Assembly (NCBI RefSeq): GCF_025244665.1
Contig: NZ_CP104205.1
Coordinates: 806,001-870,000, forward strand
DNA: 64,000 nt
Direction: 5' to 3'
Source of the DNA: Maribacter litopenaei
Lineage (GTDB): Bacteria > Bacteroidota > Bacteroidia > Flavobacteriales > Flavobacteriaceae
Shown: one piece after another, positions 3,180 to 46,887 of the stretch
Numbering within the stretch: position 1 is the stretch's first letter
How the letters are laid out: every line of letters begins with the position of its first letter
The notes under the pieces: generated by a model
Database searches by the model: none
The model's input: the letters and a program-made list of their open reading frames with translations, nothing else
What the model was told of the DNA's origin: nothing
Translations under genes and position numbers: made by a program

Positions 3180-5557
3180 CTAAATTGTTACTTCTTCGTA
3201 GACTTTGTTTATTAAAGACTTATGAACCTTTTGATTATCTTTTAAAGTAGATACCAATTGCTCAGGCTTCCATAGGGTTTCCAAATTTGTTTCTGGATCC
3301 ATGATGATGAGATGAAGCCATTCATTTGAAATCAGGGATATAAGCGACTCATTAGAATCCAAAATTTTGGTTACTATATTAATTGGTGCGTTGATGACCA
3401 CTGTCAATCGTAGGGGTGGATGATACGGAGTATCTTTTTCATTGTAAAGTGACTCCCAGGGAAGCCCTCTTTTTAGGTCACCACCATTACCCTGCACCAC
3501 ACCAAATTTACCAGTAATATTATGGGTTGTTTTGGTTCCTGCACCAAAGGCGTCATTATCTACGGTGGCGAAATAATAGTGACTATTGATCCATTGGGTC
3601 ACTACCATGGGCCCTTGCATAATGGCTTCCAAAGCCTTTCCACTCGTATCCTTTTCCCAATTATATGAATGTAGGAAACAACGACCATTGAGGTTATGGT
3701 TTTGTGTCAGTTTTCGAGGGCCTATTACAAAACTGGCGTTTTTGGCAAGACCCCATTCCGGTCTTGTTTCGCCCCAATTGCTTGCATTCAATTGTGCCAG
3801 GGCAACACTGTTCTTGGTACGTCCCAATCGTTCCTGTGTTGCGGAAATTTGGGCTTTTTTCAGATTGGCTTTCAGTTTGGAAAGGGCCATTTTGTGCGAT
3901 GACGGTGTATCGGCTTCAAAAAGTATGATTTCATCCGTTGTTGTATTGTGTTCAGCTCCTATAAATAAGGTCGATTCTCGGAATGATGATATCATGCTCT
4001 TTAAGAAGTATATTCCTCACCTCTTTTTCATTGGCCATATTGGCCAACATTCGGGCATTATGACGTCCTGGAGTCGCTGCGCAGGCACCACAATCGAGAC
4101 TAGATCCGAATGGGTTATTGGCTGAATGACTTCCATGACCGGTAAAAACAATGATCGGCGCAAAATCCTTCCATCCCATAAGGTCAAAGGCGGATTTTAC
4201 GATAGCTACTTTTTCGGATAAAGTAATGGACACATTCTGAGGTTCCTTATTTTTTGTGTTATTAATATAAGGACTACATGCTGCTTCATACACATTATTA
4301 TTTTTATTTCTCCATTGATAAAGCCTTCTTGAAAATAGCGTCCGTGCCGTTATGTTTAACCCGTAGAGGAACCCCGAACCCTCTACAAAACCAAAAGTGG
4401 AAGGCAGCATATTTTTCATCCGTTTTAGGAAGTAGTTCCAAAAGCTCTTCACTTCATTTTTTTTATCCAGCTTACTTTTGAAATTCTCTTTATCCTCTTT
4501 AGCCCTTTCTGATACCACATAGCAGGATTCTACAATTGGCGGACAGGCCTTTTGCAACAAACCGTTCCTTGGGTTTTCGTAATCCATGGCTATTCCAAAA
4601 AAACCTGCATAGCCAAAGGTTTCATAATTTCCCTGGGATTCCACATGCCTGCGTATGAGTTCTGATCGCGTGTCTATACAGAAGACCATCTGTACATCGG
4701 GTGAGGTATTTTTATTTTCTACAATATCGATGGAAGATTTTTTTAAGGTCTGTAATAGTTTCTTTTGCCAACTTTTCTCCCAGGCCAAGAGCCATATATA
4801 GTGTAGTTCTGCTGAATGGTCCAAGGACTTATCGGGCCTATCTTTTATAACAAGTGGGTATCCCATTTTTTTGCTGGCCCAAAGTCTAACGGCCGAGATA
4901 ATCCTTAAGGTCTATTGGAGCCTCCCTTTGCCAAGCGTGAAGTTTTTCACTTCTGTGCTTTATGTAGCCTGTCCAACCTGGTAGGGCGGCCAAATGTTGA
5001 TCAAGCACCATCAAGATTGTTTCTTCCGATTGCCCTTTTAGCAAAATTTCCAATGCTTCTTCGCTGGTTTTGGGAATCATGTTCATACCAATCTTTCCTA
5101 AACTATCATCGTATGGTGCCAAGTATCTCCAGGCCATGTAAAACCCCTCTGTCTTGAAAGGCATTTGCCATTCGGCCAAACCTTCGTCCAAAAAGGAGGA
5201 GAGCCATTTTACCATGTACTGGTCCAAAGCGCATTCCTTATGGCCAGTTTTATTGGCCGTCCTAGTTGCCATAAGTTCCAAAGAAACCTCCGGGGTATGG
5301 GCATATCCCTTTTTCTTTAATAGTTTCTGTATTTCAAAGTGATCAATTTCCCCTCTTTCCAAGGCTTTCCTATAGACAGAGGCCTTTGGAAACATGTCCG
5401 CTTCTAAAAGACTTTCCGCCTTTTTTACGGCCTGGAAAAAATGTCTTTCCTCGTAACCACTAAGAGGGTTGGAGGTTACAAACGAATATAGTGGCCAAGT
5501 GTCTCCCACATATTTGGATGCTTTCTCTATTAGTCTTTCTATTTCCGAATGGTTCAT
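3180..5557 (-). CDS. dabA: DabA-type inorganic-carbon uptake protein (DUF2309)
   Basis: Carbonic-anhydrase-like subunit of the DAB complex, which with DabB accumulates bicarbonate using an ion gradient. Visible active-site landmarks are the C-x-D-T-R-S motif (FCIDTRSELIRRH) and the later H and C ligand region (FTGHGSHSANNPFGSSLDCGACA), matching the beta-carbonic-anhydrase-like zinc site known for DabA. About 790 residues after repair, as usual for the family. Two breaks, both one extra base in a CCAGA context: 4893-4898 (restores KDYLAVRLWASKKMGYP) and 3976-3981 (restores DIIIPESTLFIGAEHNTTTD). It starts 4 bases after the dabB stop. In a heterotroph this pair probably supplies bicarbonate for carboxylation reactions; that is an inference. 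Confidence 0.9.
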
Positions 5558-8821: not shown

Positions 8822-8832
8822 CTTGAGTGTCG

Positions 8833-9230
8833 TGGAGCCGGAGGGATTCGAACCCTCGTCCAAACAAGCAACGTCAGTGCTTTCTACATGCTTAGTATCT
8901 GCTTGGTTTTCGATGTACACCTGACCGAGAAACCGCCTAATGTACACTTATCTTCTTAAAGTTTTAGAGGCACCGCCAAAGCGAGCGGATACCCTTGTGT
9001 TGACTTTTCCGGTGCTCCTAAATGAATCGCCGTCAACAAGGGCTATTCAGGAACATCTCGCTTCCCTACCTTGTAGGGACGAGGCAAATCTTACTATAAT
9101 TCAGATTATGCGGCAAGAGCGTAATTATTTTCGCCAATTAAAAGTGTGAAGTATGATATTAACGAGCTGTACCCCAGCGCTCGGCATGCTTACAATGCCA
9201 TTGGTCTCGCTGTCAAAACCAGTCGGCCCC
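8833..9230 (-). ncRNA. ssrA: Transfer-messenger RNA (tmRNA)
   Basis: Rescues stalled ribosomes and tags their products. On the minus strand it opens with GGGGCCGACTGGTTTTGACA and closes with TTCGAATCCCTCCGGCTCC plus the discriminator A, and these ends pair as the acceptor stem. The CCA tail is not fully encoded. An internal frame reads GENNYALAA followed by TAA, the proteolysis tag typical of flavobacteria. The length of about 398 bases fits. The bases at 8925-8930 read CCGAGA, the same hexamer that marks the frame breaks elsewhere, so this RNA may also carry one spurious base. Confidence 0.95.
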
Positions 9231-10712: not shown

Positions 10713-11823
10713 TTATCAGGATTTACCATCCAAGTAACTACTGGTTGTGTTTCAGGGGCCACAAAACAGCCCAAGGCCCTTAGTTTTAGTTCCACAGATG
10801 TCTTTCTTTGCAATGTTTTTAGGTGCAGGGTTTTCGTTTGTCCCGCTTCAATTTCAAAAACCGGAGAACTATCATAGAATGTGTACTCCGAATCATTTTG
10901 AAATAAAAGGTCGCTACTGGTGACATTTTTTAGGGTAATTTGTAATACATTACTTTCCTCTGCATACTTTGCCGATTCCACCTTGATACTTGCCTCCAAA
11001 AGTGGCATCATATACATCGCTTTACCGACCCATAAATCGTTGTAAATGGCCACGGTCCTACCGGCGAAAAGGGCTTCCTTTATGGAGGGAAGGCTCTTTT
11101 CCTTGGCAAAAACTAAGGTAATAGGGCGGTGATTCCCTTTTTCAGTATAGTCCCAATCAATAAGCCCATGGACATCGCTGGTTCCCATAATGGTTAGGTT
11201 TTTTGAGAGGGCCAAGGCTAAGGATTCCTCCGCGTAATCGGTAAAGTTAATAACCTCGATACCATGAAGTTCGCCATTTTTAATGCGTTCTTTTTGAAAG
11301 TCGCTGAGAATAGGGTTTCCATCAGGGTTTTGGGCGTACCAGGCAGGATGATTCCGAATACAAAGGCTCCTTGTTTTTTTGCTTCCGTAAAGGCATCGGC
11401 TGCCTTTTCTTGTAAGATAGGATTGGCATCGTCTATAAAAACAGCGTTATTATGGCCCATGGGAGCACTACGTGTAATTTCGGAACCATGTACGATCAAG
11501 AGATCATAGTCCGCAGCCTCCTTTAAGGCTATTTCATAGGAACGGTTTCTATCCGGATGCGGAATATCCTGTGAATGTGGTTGGTATTCCAAATGTTCCG
11601 TAAGGGAAATTACATCCAGATTATCCCTAAGGGCTTCCTGAACCCGGATGTTGGGCCATACATTGCCATCGGAAAATACGGTATGCATATGCAAGTCGGT
11701 CTTGATGCTTTTATATCCAGGAATATCCGGAAAAGTCAAGGGTCTAGAACTACGATGTGTGTGCTCTTGTCCGACTAATAAAATGGTGAAAAATAAAAAA
11801 AAGAAAGGGATGATACTTTTCAT
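10709..11823 (-). CDS. Exported PHP-domain phosphoesterase
   Basis: Metal-dependent hydrolase of the polymerase-and-histidinol-phosphatase superfamily. A signal peptide (KSIIPFFFLFFTILLVGQ) precedes the metal-binding motif TDLHMHTVFSDG, then ISLTEHLEY, a conserved HGSEIT, and later GTSDVHGLIDWD, all typical PHP metal ligands. A break at 11354-11357 (CCGA for CCAGA) splits it; repair gives FVFWNHPAWYAQNPDG and an uninterrupted path to the stop, about 370 residues. The ATG at 11823 is preferred because it starts the signal peptide. It stands alone. Substrate unknown; a periplasmic phosphoesterase is likely. Confidence 0.82.
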
Positions 11824-42734: not shown

Positions 42735-42977
42735 AATTAAGTTAAATTTTTAGTATTTCAAAGCTAAGTACTTCATTGAGCTTATTCTTATAAAAAGTCG
42801 TTAAATTTTAACATACTTACAGAATGGTTCTTATATTTTCATTTTAAAATGATATGATTTATATTTTATATAAATAGATGTTTTATAGTATAAATATGTA
42901 ATCATATAATACGAATGTGTTTTATATTATAAACTATAAACTCATTTTTGTATCGAAATTATTATAAAAATAATAGT

Positions 42978-44648
42978 ATGTGTGGAATTGTTTGTGCATT
43001 TGATGTTAAGGAAAGTACGGATGTACTAAGACCTCAATTGCTTGAAATGTCTAAAAAAGTTAGGCATAGAGGCCCGGACTGGAGTGGTATTTATGCGGAT
43101 GAGAAGGCCATTTTGGCCCACGAGCGTTTGGCAATTGTGGATCCAGCTTCGGAAAACAACCTCTTTTAAGTGAAGATGGAAAGTTGATATTGGCCGCAAA
43201 CGGCGAAATTTATAACCACAGGGAATTGCGTAAGCAATTCGAGGGCAAATATAATTTTAAGACCGAATCAGATTGTGAGGTCATTCGCGCCCTTTATCAA
43301 GAGAAAGCGACCTCATTTCATTGATGAAATGAACGGAATTTTTGGTTTTGCCATCTATGATTCTGAAAAGGATGAATATTTTGTGGCACGTGACCACATG
43401 GGGATAATACCTTTATACATGGGGTGGGACCAGAATGGAACCTTTTATGTGGCCTCTGAACTCAAGGCATTGGAAGGTACATGTACCAAGATTGAATTAT
43501 TTCCTCCGGGCCATTATTTGCATAGTGCTGATGGTGAGTTGAAAAGATGGTACAAACGAGATTGGATGGAGTATGAGGCCGTTAAGGAAAATCAAACCAG
43601 CATTCAAGCTATTAAAGAAGCATTGGAAGCAGCCGTACATCGTCAGTTGATGTCCGATGTACCCTATGGAGTATTGCTATCTCGGGGATTGGATTCCTCG
43701 GTTACATCGGCCATTGCGAAAAAGTATGCTCAAAAGAGAATAGAGTCGGGTGACACCGTTGACGCTTGGTGGCCACAGCTACATTCGTTTTCCGTAGGTC
43801 CGGAAGGCTCTCCGGATTTAGCTGCAGCTCAAAAGGTAGCGGACCATATCGGAACCGTGCATCATGAAATCAAGTTTACGATTCAGGAAGGTCTCGGATG
43901 CCATTAGGGATGTAATATATAACCTGGAAACCTATGATATAACTACGATTCGCGCCTCTACGCCTATGTATCTAATGGCACGTGTCATCAAGTCCATGGG
44001 AATAAAGATGGTTCTTTACGGGGAAGGAGCCGATGAGCTTTTCGGTGGATATTTATATTTCCACAAGGCGCCAAGTCCAAAGGATTTTCATGAAGAGACT
44101 GTTCGTAAGTTGGAAAAACTTCATATGTACGATTGTCTTAGGGCAAATAAATCTTTGGCCGCTTGGGGAATCGAGGGCCGGGTACCATTTTTGGACAAGG
44201 AGTTTATGGACGTGGCCATGCGAATCAATCCAAAAGATAAAATGATCAACGGGGAGCGCATGGAAAAATGGGTGGTTCGTAAAGCTTTTGAGGACATGCT
44301 GCCTGAAAGTGTGGCTTGGAGGCAAAAAGAACAATTTTCAGATGGTGTAGGTTATAGTTGGATCGATACCCTAAAGGAATTAGTGGCGACGGAGGTAACC
44401 GACGATCAATTGGCAAATGCTAGATTTAGGTTCCCTATTCAAACACCTACCACCAAAGAAGAATTTTATTATAGATCCATATTTGAGGAGCATTTTCCTT
44501 CGGATGCCGCTGCATTGTGCGTACCCCAGGAACCTTCTGTTGCGTGTAGTACCAAGATAGCGTTGGAATGGGACGAGGCGTTTAAAAACATGAACGACCC
44601 TTCGGGCGTGCTGTGGCCAAAGTACATGCGGATGCTTATGTGAAGTAA
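42978..44648 (+). CDS. asnB: Glutamine-hydrolysing asparagine synthetase B
   Basis: Makes asparagine from aspartate, glutamine and ATP. The start is the ATG before CGIV, because Cys2 must become the N-terminal nucleophile. About 556 residues after repair. Breaks: 43149-43152 and 44602-44605 (TCGG), 43892-43897 (TCTCGG), and 43305-43310 (one extra base, different context). Three missense changes also sit on the same pentamer: 43680-43685 turns the ATP loop SGGLDS into SRGLDS, 44017-44021 turns LSGEGADE into LYGEGADE, and 43799-43803 turns VGLEGSPD into VGPEGSPD. All are best read as sequence errors. Convergent terminators follow. Confidence 0.95.
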
Positions 44649-44944: not shown

Positions 44945-46887
44945 ATGAGCGAAGAAGCAAATAAAAAGCAATATTCAGCGGATAGTATACAGGCGTTAGA
45001 GGGAATGGAGCACGTAAGGATGCGTCCATCCATGTACATTGGTGACGTAGGTGTCCGAGGATTGCATCACTTGGTTTATGAGGTGGTGGACAACTCCATA
45101 GATGAGGCCATGGGTGGTTATTGCGATACTATCAGTGTGACCATAAACGAGGATAATTCCATCACAACCAAGGATAATGGTAGGGGTATACCGGTTGATT
45201 TACATAAAAAGGAAGGTGTATCCGCCCTTGAGGTTGTAATGACCAAAATAGGTGCAGGTGGTAAGTTTGATAAGGATTCCTATAAAGTTTCCGGTGGTTT
45301 GCACGGTGTGGGTGTTTCTTGTGTCAATGCGCTGTCCAATCATTTGAAGGCAACAGTCCATAGGGATGGAAAAATATGGGAGCAGGAATATGAAAGGGGA
45401 AAGGCCCTTTACCCTGTTAAAAGTGTTGGTGAAACTGACTACAGAGGTACTATAGTGACCTTTAAACCGGATGATACCATTTTCACTCAGACCATCGAAT
45501 ATAGCTATGAAACGCTTTCCAATAGAATGCGTGAACTTTCTTTCCTTAACAAAGGCGTGACCATTACCATTACGGATAGAAGGCGCAAGGATGACAAAGG
45601 AGAGTTTGTTTCTGAAACGTTTTTCTCCAATGAGGGTCTTAAGGAATTTGTTAAATTTTTGGACGGTAACCGGGAGCCCCTGATACAGAATGTGATTTCC
45701 ATGGAAGGGGAAAAAAATGATATTCCCGTGGAAGTTGCCATGATTTACAATACTAGTTATACAGAGAATCTTCATTCTTATGTGAATAATATAAATACAC
45801 ATGAAGGAGGTACGCACTTATCTCGGTTTTAGGAGAGGTTTGACCACTACATTGAAGAAGTATGCGGATTCGTCGGGAATGCTGGACAAGCTAAAGTTTG
45901 AGATTCAAGGGGATGATTTTAGGGAAGGCCTAACGGCAATCGTTTCCGTTAAAGTGGCAGAACCTCAGTTTGAGGGCCGAGACAAAAACAAAATTAGGGA
46001 ACCGAGAAGTTTCCTCGGCCGTTAGTCAGGCTGTTTCTGAAATGTTGACGGACTATTTAGAAGAACATCCCGACGATGCCAAGGTAATCGTACAAAAAGT
46101 AATCCTAGCCGCTCAGGCCGGACATGCAGCAACCAAGGCTAGGGAGATGGTGCAGCGAAAGACCGTAATGAGCGTTGGCGGATTGCCAGGGAAGTTATCC
46201 GATTGTTCTGAGCAGGATCCTACACAATGTGAAGTGTTCCTCGTTGAGGGGGATTCCGCAGGTGGAACGGCCAAGCAAGGTCGTGATAGGAATTTCCAGG
46301 CCATTCTTCCATTGAGGGGTAAGATTCTGAATGTTGAAAAGGCTATGCAGCATAAGGTTTTTGAGAATGAGGAAATCAAAAATATTTATACGGCTCTTGG
46401 AGTAACCATTGGAACTGAAGAAGACAGCAAGGCTTTGAACTTGGAAAAACTTCGTTATCATAAAGTGGTTATCATGTGTGATGCGGATGTGGATGGTAGC
46501 CACATTGAAACCTTGATTCTTACCTTCTTCTTTAGGTATATGCGGGAGCTGATTGAAGGTGGTCACGTTTATATTGCGACGCCGCCATTGTATTTGGTAA
46601 AAAAAGGTCAAAAGAAGCAATATGCCTGGATCGATAAAGAACGTGATGAAATAGCCGCAAGTTATAGTGGAGGTGTTAGTATACAGCGATATAAAGGTCT
46701 TGGAGAGATGAATGCCGAGCAACTTTGGGATACTACTATGAATCCTGAGTTTAGGACCTTACGTCAAATTACTATTGAAAATGCCACGGAGACCGATAGA
46801 ATCTTCTCTATGTTAATGGGTGATGAGGTTCCCCCAAGACGGGAATTCATTGAGAAAAATGCTGTTTATGCGAACATTGACACATAG
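44945..46887 (+). CDS. gyrB: DNA gyrase subunit B
   Basis: ATPase subunit of gyrase. The GHKL ATP site is visible (VDNSIDEAMGG, DNGRGIPV, GGLHGVGVSCVNALS), then the transducer domain, and the TOPRIM region (LVEGDSAGGTAKQGRDR, DADVDGSHI). About 647 residues after repair. Two breaks: 45821-45826 (TCTCGG, restores THLSGFRRGLTTTLKKYA) and 45977-45982 (CCGAGA, restores FEGQTKTKLGNREVSS; here only CCAGA gives the invariant glutamine). An essential gene broken twice shows these are not real mutations. Terminator directly after. Confidence 0.97.

Follow-up and report, generated by a model that had tools for sequence, protein, structure and literature searches.

Missense changes in asnB of a Maribacter litopenaei assembly fall on altered TCTGG sites and are probably methylation-motif consensus errors

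The apparent missense changes in asnB of the public Maribacter litopenaei genome are best explained as methylation-motif consensus errors of a nanopore assembly made from native DNA, and not as mutations. We put the probability of this reading at roughly 0.9; the platform, the base modification and the enzyme are parts of it that we infer. Direct analysis of the genome, a single contig of 3,864,532 bases rated 81.68% complete (G000 in our congener set), reveals the altered motif, its loss across a sample of the chromosome, its main products, a broken gyrB and an altered site in the 16S rRNA genes. The errors are concentrated in one short motif and affect it on both strands, as TCTGG and as its complement CCAGA. 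The whole stretch that was analysed, hereafter the window, comprises 64,000 nt (positions 806,001 to 870,000 of contig NZ_CP104205.1).

The gene asnB, for the glutamine-hydrolysing asparagine synthase B, lies on the forward strand at 42979..44643, as judged from its open reading frames, the NCBIfam model NF006949 and a DNA alignment that includes five congeners (G007, G009, G002, G022 and G033). It is split into three frames in the assembly, the pieces being open at 42948-43169, 43275-43907 and 43864-44643. The second and third match NF006949 at profile positions 108-306 and 307-544 of 554, and the split leaves each of them short of the model's whole-protein cut-off. Three missense changes, all on the forward strand, leave the frame intact: TCTCGG at 43680..43685 turns SGGLDS, which we take to be the ATP-binding loop, into SRGLDS; TCCGG at 43799..43803 turns VGLEGSPD into VGPEGSPD, a change also recovered by the codon survey described below; and TACGG at 44017..44021 turns LSGEGADE into LYGEGADE. 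A string check of the window found these three strings and their positions, as given in a first-pass annotation of the sequence, to be exact to the base. A fourth missense change that the annotation did not contain was seen in the alignment at 43285..43289 (forward strand), where TCGCG replaces a conserved Leu by Arg; the codon at 43286-43288 reads ATTCGCGCC in the window, and the congeners have the Leu codons CTG, TTG, CTA, TTG and TTG there.

Four frameshifts accompany these changes on the same strand. One-base deletions giving TTCGG lie at 43151 (string at 43148..43152) and, near the C-terminus, at 44604 (44601..44605), and a one-base insertion giving TCTCGG lies at 43892 (43892..43897), each being called against all five congeners. 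The remaining frameshift, at 43308, is a one-base insertion giving GCGACC (43307..43312) and is called against four of the five; it falls in a GGACC context, which belongs to a second motif. It can be seen that TCTGG fits all four missense changes and the three other frameshifts, and that a CpG is present in the alignment at all seven altered sites of the TCTGG type.

An alignment with related AsnB proteins had been suggested as a check in the first-pass annotation; in the DNA alignment with the five congeners, none of them has Arg, Tyr or Pro at the positions in question. All five encode S-G-G-L-D-S, V-G-L-E-G-S-P-D and L-S-G-E-G-A-D-E. TCTGG itself is used by G009 at all three places and by G033 at LSGE, and at VGLE the sequence of G009, GGTCTGGAAGG, differs by a single base from that of the window, GGTCCGGAAGG. 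The printed sequence taken by itself would favour a genuinely divergent AsnB whose active-site loops differ; this is scarcely credible given that the loops concerned are identical in 5/5 congeners, that the gene carries four frameshifts and that one motif accounts for all four missense changes. From this comparison, we consider it very probable that Arg, Tyr and Pro do not belong to the true protein. Although the SGGLDS loop is absent from asnB as printed in the assembly, we judge SRGLDS to be a sequence error, and the mismatch in the loop does not weaken the identification of the gene. The claim that the asnB changes are errors at one pentamer was borne out both by the conserved Gly, Ser and Leu of the congeners and by the genome-wide behaviour of the pentamer. 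In place of independent sequence of the strain, which the annotation named as the refuting evidence, the congeners and the 16S rRNA described below both speak against Arg, Tyr and Pro. It had also been proposed that SRGLDS arose by insertion of a C and loss of one G; that the site is altered holds, but this route is indistinguishable from a single G-to-C substitution.

No other pentamers in the window fall as far short of a Markov expectation as TCTGG and CCAGA, with 9 seen against 33.5 expected and 14 against 36.9, respectively, so that each strand stands at about a third of expectation. Genome-wide figures were obtained from a 400-kb sample of the chromosome (20 stretches, L135-L154, about 10% of the genome), with 74-kb stretches from each of the five congeners as the frequency baseline. 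CCAGA/TCTGG occurs 144 times in the sample, or 0.36 per kb, and its observed/expected ratio of 0.39 is the lowest of the 512 pentamer classes; the five congeners have 1.55-1.97 per kb, ratios of 1.09-1.30 and ranks of 409-510. This amounts to 0.20 of the congener frequency; CGCGC, at 0.57, is the class with the next lowest value in the sample. Most of the one-letter neighbours that we looked at are normal by the same measure (TCAGG 1.03, TCGGG 0.99, ACTGG 1.19, GCTGG 0.99 and CCTGG 0.95), and TCCGG is raised 1.37-fold; another product string, the six-mer CCGAGA, is raised 2.84-fold. Since the neighbours are normal and TCTGG is low, the affected string is TCTGG itself, on both strands.

The loss depends on context. 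In the 400-kb sample ATCTGGT is kept in full, at 43 against the 42.2 that the congeners predict, whereas GTCTGGG is gone (0 seen, 27 expected). The sparing of ATCTGGT fits a k-mer effect of the basecaller at least as well as an effect of an enzyme, and methylation of the motif in this genome is deduced, not measured; both points would suit an artefact in which a basecaller or polisher simply handles the bare string TCTGG badly. Such a weakness, however, should strike every genome that came from the same caller, and G007, which is likewise a single contig although its platform is unstated, has lost no CCAGA (observed/expected 1.17). Moreover, strain-specific motif errors are notably fewer after PCR, according to the available part of one report (PMC11389150). 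We therefore regard an artefact independent of methylation as unlikely, and prefer errors at a methylated motif.

Comparison site by site in the window gives the same picture. Among sites common to at least three congeners, TCTGG/CCAGA is kept at 2 of 26, whereas other pentamers are kept at 11642 of 20207; insertions or deletions are found at 5 of the 26 and at 75 of the 20207. Lowering the requirement to at least two congeners gives 79 sites, of which 6 are kept, 29 have been altered in a way that creates a CpG and 10 differ in length. For nine control pentamers examined at the same level of conservation, the fraction kept runs from 0.13 (TCGGG, 4/31) to 0.51. Seven of the controls contain no CpG, and in these a CpG has appeared at 0.06 to 0.24 of the sites (for example CCTGG 14/58 and TCAGG 17/74), and between 0 and 8 length changes are seen per control pentamer, including 8/396 for TTTGG and 5/74 for TCAGG.

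A set of 45 single-base insertions and deletions was assembled, each supported by at least three congeners. Fourteen are TCTCGG/CCGAGA, 13 are deletions at TCGG/CCGA/TCCCG, one lies in GGWCC and 17 are of other kinds; at random positions the TCTCGG/CCGAGA pattern would be met at a rate of 0.0037 and the TCGG/CCGA/TCCCG pattern at 0.054. The 17 outside both motif classes may include natural intergenic changes.

Two other measures were set aside. A reversion test on 56 single-base insertions and deletions returned CCGGA 30 times (2.5 expected) and CCAGA 28 times (6.2 expected); it is confounded because removing another base from TCTCGG yields TCCGG, and for that reason we relied on congener-conserved sites and frequency ratios. 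Pairwise retention calculated without a conservation filter ranks CCGCG and ACGCG below CCAGA; once the filter is applied, CCAGA has the lowest retention of all classes represented by at least 15 sites.

Besides silent changes, reading T as C in TCTGG is predicted to turn Leu into Pro and Trp into Arg on one strand, and on the opposite strand Gln into Arg and Arg into Gly. We surveyed 12521 codons on which at least three congeners agree, and the window differs at 271 of them. Among these are seven changes of Leu to Pro, five of Gln to Arg, one of Trp to Arg and one of Arg to Gly. CCGGA or TCCGG lies within 4 bases of 11 of the 271 changed codons, and all 11 belong to the four predicted classes; the same context is found at 164 of 12250 unchanged codons. 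The other three of the 14 changes in the predicted classes adjoin TCCCGG, CCGAA and CCGAGA. The reverse classes number 1, 0, 3 and 1, the 3 being Gly to Arg, and the SRGLDS site may be among them. Ten of the 11 conserved-codon changes in CCGGA context lie outside asnB, in keeping with the suggestion in the first-pass annotation that intact-looking genes may hold false substitutions.

Per 400 kb, 567 TCTGG sites are missing. The excess of TCCGG, the frame-keeping T-to-C product, amounts to about 263 (46% of the loss) and makes it the commonest countable outcome, followed by TCTCGG with an excess of 110 and TTCGG with a small excess of 71; errors that keep the frame thus occur besides frameshifts, as had been claimed. 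By raw frequency against the congeners, TACGG, TCGCG, ATCGG and GTCGG show no excess in the 400-kb sample. CG is less frequent in this genome (31.3 per kb) than in the congeners (35.9 per kb), which makes raw frequency unsuitable for counting rare products. Extrapolated to 3.86 Mb, these figures correspond to some 5,500 altered motif sites, of which just under half would be plain substitutions; such totals are rough because composition differs among the congeners. The frame-keeping share of the outcomes is large, perhaps half.

Sites that are unlikely to vary in a living cell are among those altered. For 16S rRNA we compared 14 congener genes, taken out of 22 congeners with a 16S match. A CCAGA site common to all 14 is altered in both copies of the M. 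litopenaei gene (L155 and L156), each copy having one extra base and the alteration differing between them. The two copies differ from each other at five columns, all in CCAGA or GGWCC sites. At fourteen further places both copies alike depart from columns that are invariant in the congeners, and these look like ordinary divergence. A tmRNA gene was also seen in the window at 8832-9230 on the reverse strand (tag GENNYALAA); it has an inserted base at 8927, in a CCGAGA context, supported by 4/4 congeners.

Downstream of asnB, gyrB (44945..46887, forward strand) is broken at 45823 (TCTCGG) and at 45979 (CCGAGA), in each case against 5/5 congeners. Over asnB-gyrB the closest named loci are from Saonia and Arenibacter, with DNA identities of about 79%, in a collection that may omit records near the window. 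A type II topoisomerase B subunit of the gyrB/parE kind is needed for life. We found one other PF00204 gene, near G000:C1 1669384 (L161), for which NCBIfam is ambiguous (205 bits with the gyrB model TIGR01059, 170 and 157 bits with parE models). It was taken to be parE because its gyrase B score is far below those of the gyrB pieces in the window (406 and 451 bits) and because it adjoins a gene for subunit A. The open frame of this putative parE covers profile positions 167-516 of 639 only, and it may also be split by an error.

An altered 16S site and a broken gyrB are difficult to accept in a living cell. They bear on the idea that the mutations are real, with TCTGG/CCAGA having been lost because the lineage avoids a restriction site or undergoes a mutational process such as deamination of m5C, and asnB being a decaying pseudogene. 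The depletion of the motif across the genome sample would agree with this, as would the presence of C5-methylases with restriction-type neighbours; CTAGA, the product of deamination, is mildly raised (1.29-fold), though a similar rise is seen for ACTAA and GCTAA. Deamination yields C-to-T changes, however, and not TCTCGG, TCGG or TCCGG, nor are single-base length changes at 10/79 motif sites and a fully conserved 16S site that is altered differently in two copies of one genome to be expected of it. Real mutation is thus very unlikely indeed, and we favour consensus errors at a methylated motif.

The errors most likely arise as follows. CCAGA would be modified in the cell, most likely as m5C on the C preceding the A, and native DNA would have been read on nanopores and then assembled with too little correction by another method. 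The basecaller would tend to take the modified C for the start of a CpG, so that CCA is turned into CCG through a base substitution, an inserted G or a lost A; the complementary strand would show TCCGG, TCTCGG or TCGG in place of TCTGG, with TACGG or TCGCG at times. Outcomes that keep the frame would mimic Leu-to-Pro, Gln-to-Arg, Trp-to-Arg, Arg-to-Gly or silent changes, and the others would break genes. The CpG found at the asnB sites and at 29 of 73 altered conserved sites suggests a caller trained on m5C mainly in CpG. This rule is not clean, as the remainder of the 73 includes ordinary divergence and the products of GGWCC in 16S do not show the CpG habit. In addition, a mark on one strand should leave half of the reads clean, so that alteration of about 80% of the sites would need some further bias.

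GGWCC stands at 0.61 of its congener frequency in the 400-kb sample. Four GGWCC sites in 16S are common to 14/14 congeners, one of them overlapping the CCAGA site, and they are altered in one or both copies, mostly to GGATC or GATCC, which contain no CpG. Three C5-methylase loci are present in the genome. The first encodes a protein of 501 aa with an N-terminal HTH (G000:C1:1952124-1953626, L179 5125-7720, forward strand) and is followed by an HNH endonuclease gene, with which it may form a restriction-modification pair; two of its nearest plasmid relatives adjoin LlaJI-family endonucleases. A search of the other 35 genomes of the genus at E 1e-60 gave no match to this methylase, and on that uniqueness it is the best candidate for the enzyme acting on CCAGA. 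A second, of 414 aa, is found in 35 of 36 genomes including this one, and all five congeners examined carry it and have kept their CCAGA sites; it could serve as an alternative if the congener genomes were sequenced in another way. The third is split in two (L181 5910-7332 on the reverse strand and 5149-5517 on the forward strand) with TCTCGG at the junction, and it adjoins an EcoO109I-like endonuclease (PF14511); the open frame of that endonuclease spans only positions 2-110 of the 198 in the profile. EcoO109I sites have a GGNCC core, and this locus could explain the effect on GGWCC. Structure-sequence searches with the three C5-methylases returned general relatives only, such as M.HhaI and M.HaeIII, and neither these nor the plasmid relatives of two of the enzymes resolved a recognition sequence. 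The PF01555 methylase family has no match in the genome, PF02384 has three matches and PF07669 has four. We entertain, at somewhat less than even odds, the broader proposal that the caller decodes non-CpG m5C as CpG and that the assembly therefore records the methylome of the strain, with CCAGA marked and GGWCC affected through the EcoO109I-like system.

Errors that keep the frame would escape tools that mend or flag frameshifts, and may then be taken for real variation in protein databases, phylogenies and 16S references. The pattern of errors also hints at which motifs a strain methylates. If the caller does decode non-CpG m5C as CpG, a screen for pentamer loss relative to congeners together with gain of CpG-containing neighbours could bring out active methylase motifs, and false missense changes that would otherwise go unnoticed, in many public genomes for which no reads are available.

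The kind of error is already known; what is new here is the motif and the share of errors that keep the frame. In the available part of a report on a nanopore-only Maribacter genome, 173 mostly frameshifted pseudogenes are discussed in terms of both host adaptation and a possible long-read artefact (PMC10942906). Among the matches listed from open-licence PMC papers, titles and the beginnings of abstracts do not name TCTGG/CCAGA as a nanopore error motif. Methylation-induced nanopore base errors that are strain-specific and bound to motifs have been described, and these survive polishing of the assembly and become fewer after PCR (PMC11610573; PMC11389150, as far as the excerpts go). In those systems and in that of PMC12016153, where a link to 6mA is made, the excerpts report mostly R/Y substitutions, whereas M. 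litopenaei has insertions, deletions and substitutions together and m5C is the candidate mark.

The closest parallel in kind is the Dcm motif (CCAGG/CCTGG, m5C), which held about 70% of the errors in nanopore assemblies with the then-current ONT callers and default models, according to the part of the paper available (PMC6591954). There, as here, the errors of native DNA gather in one m5C pentamer. The present case differs in its asymmetric motif, CCAGA, in the kind of bacterium, in the apparent alteration of about 80% of sites and in that methylation is deduced, and the Dcm motif CCWGG (CCTGG/CCAGG) is itself not depleted in this genome (0.95). CCAGA is reported as an m5C motif in Neisseria meningitidis, classed as type IIS in one of two papers (PMC7973814, PMC7046676, both in excerpt). 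The enzyme listed there with one methylase gene, NEIS0771, has as its recognition sequence the very motif altered in M. litopenaei, and modifies it to m5C.
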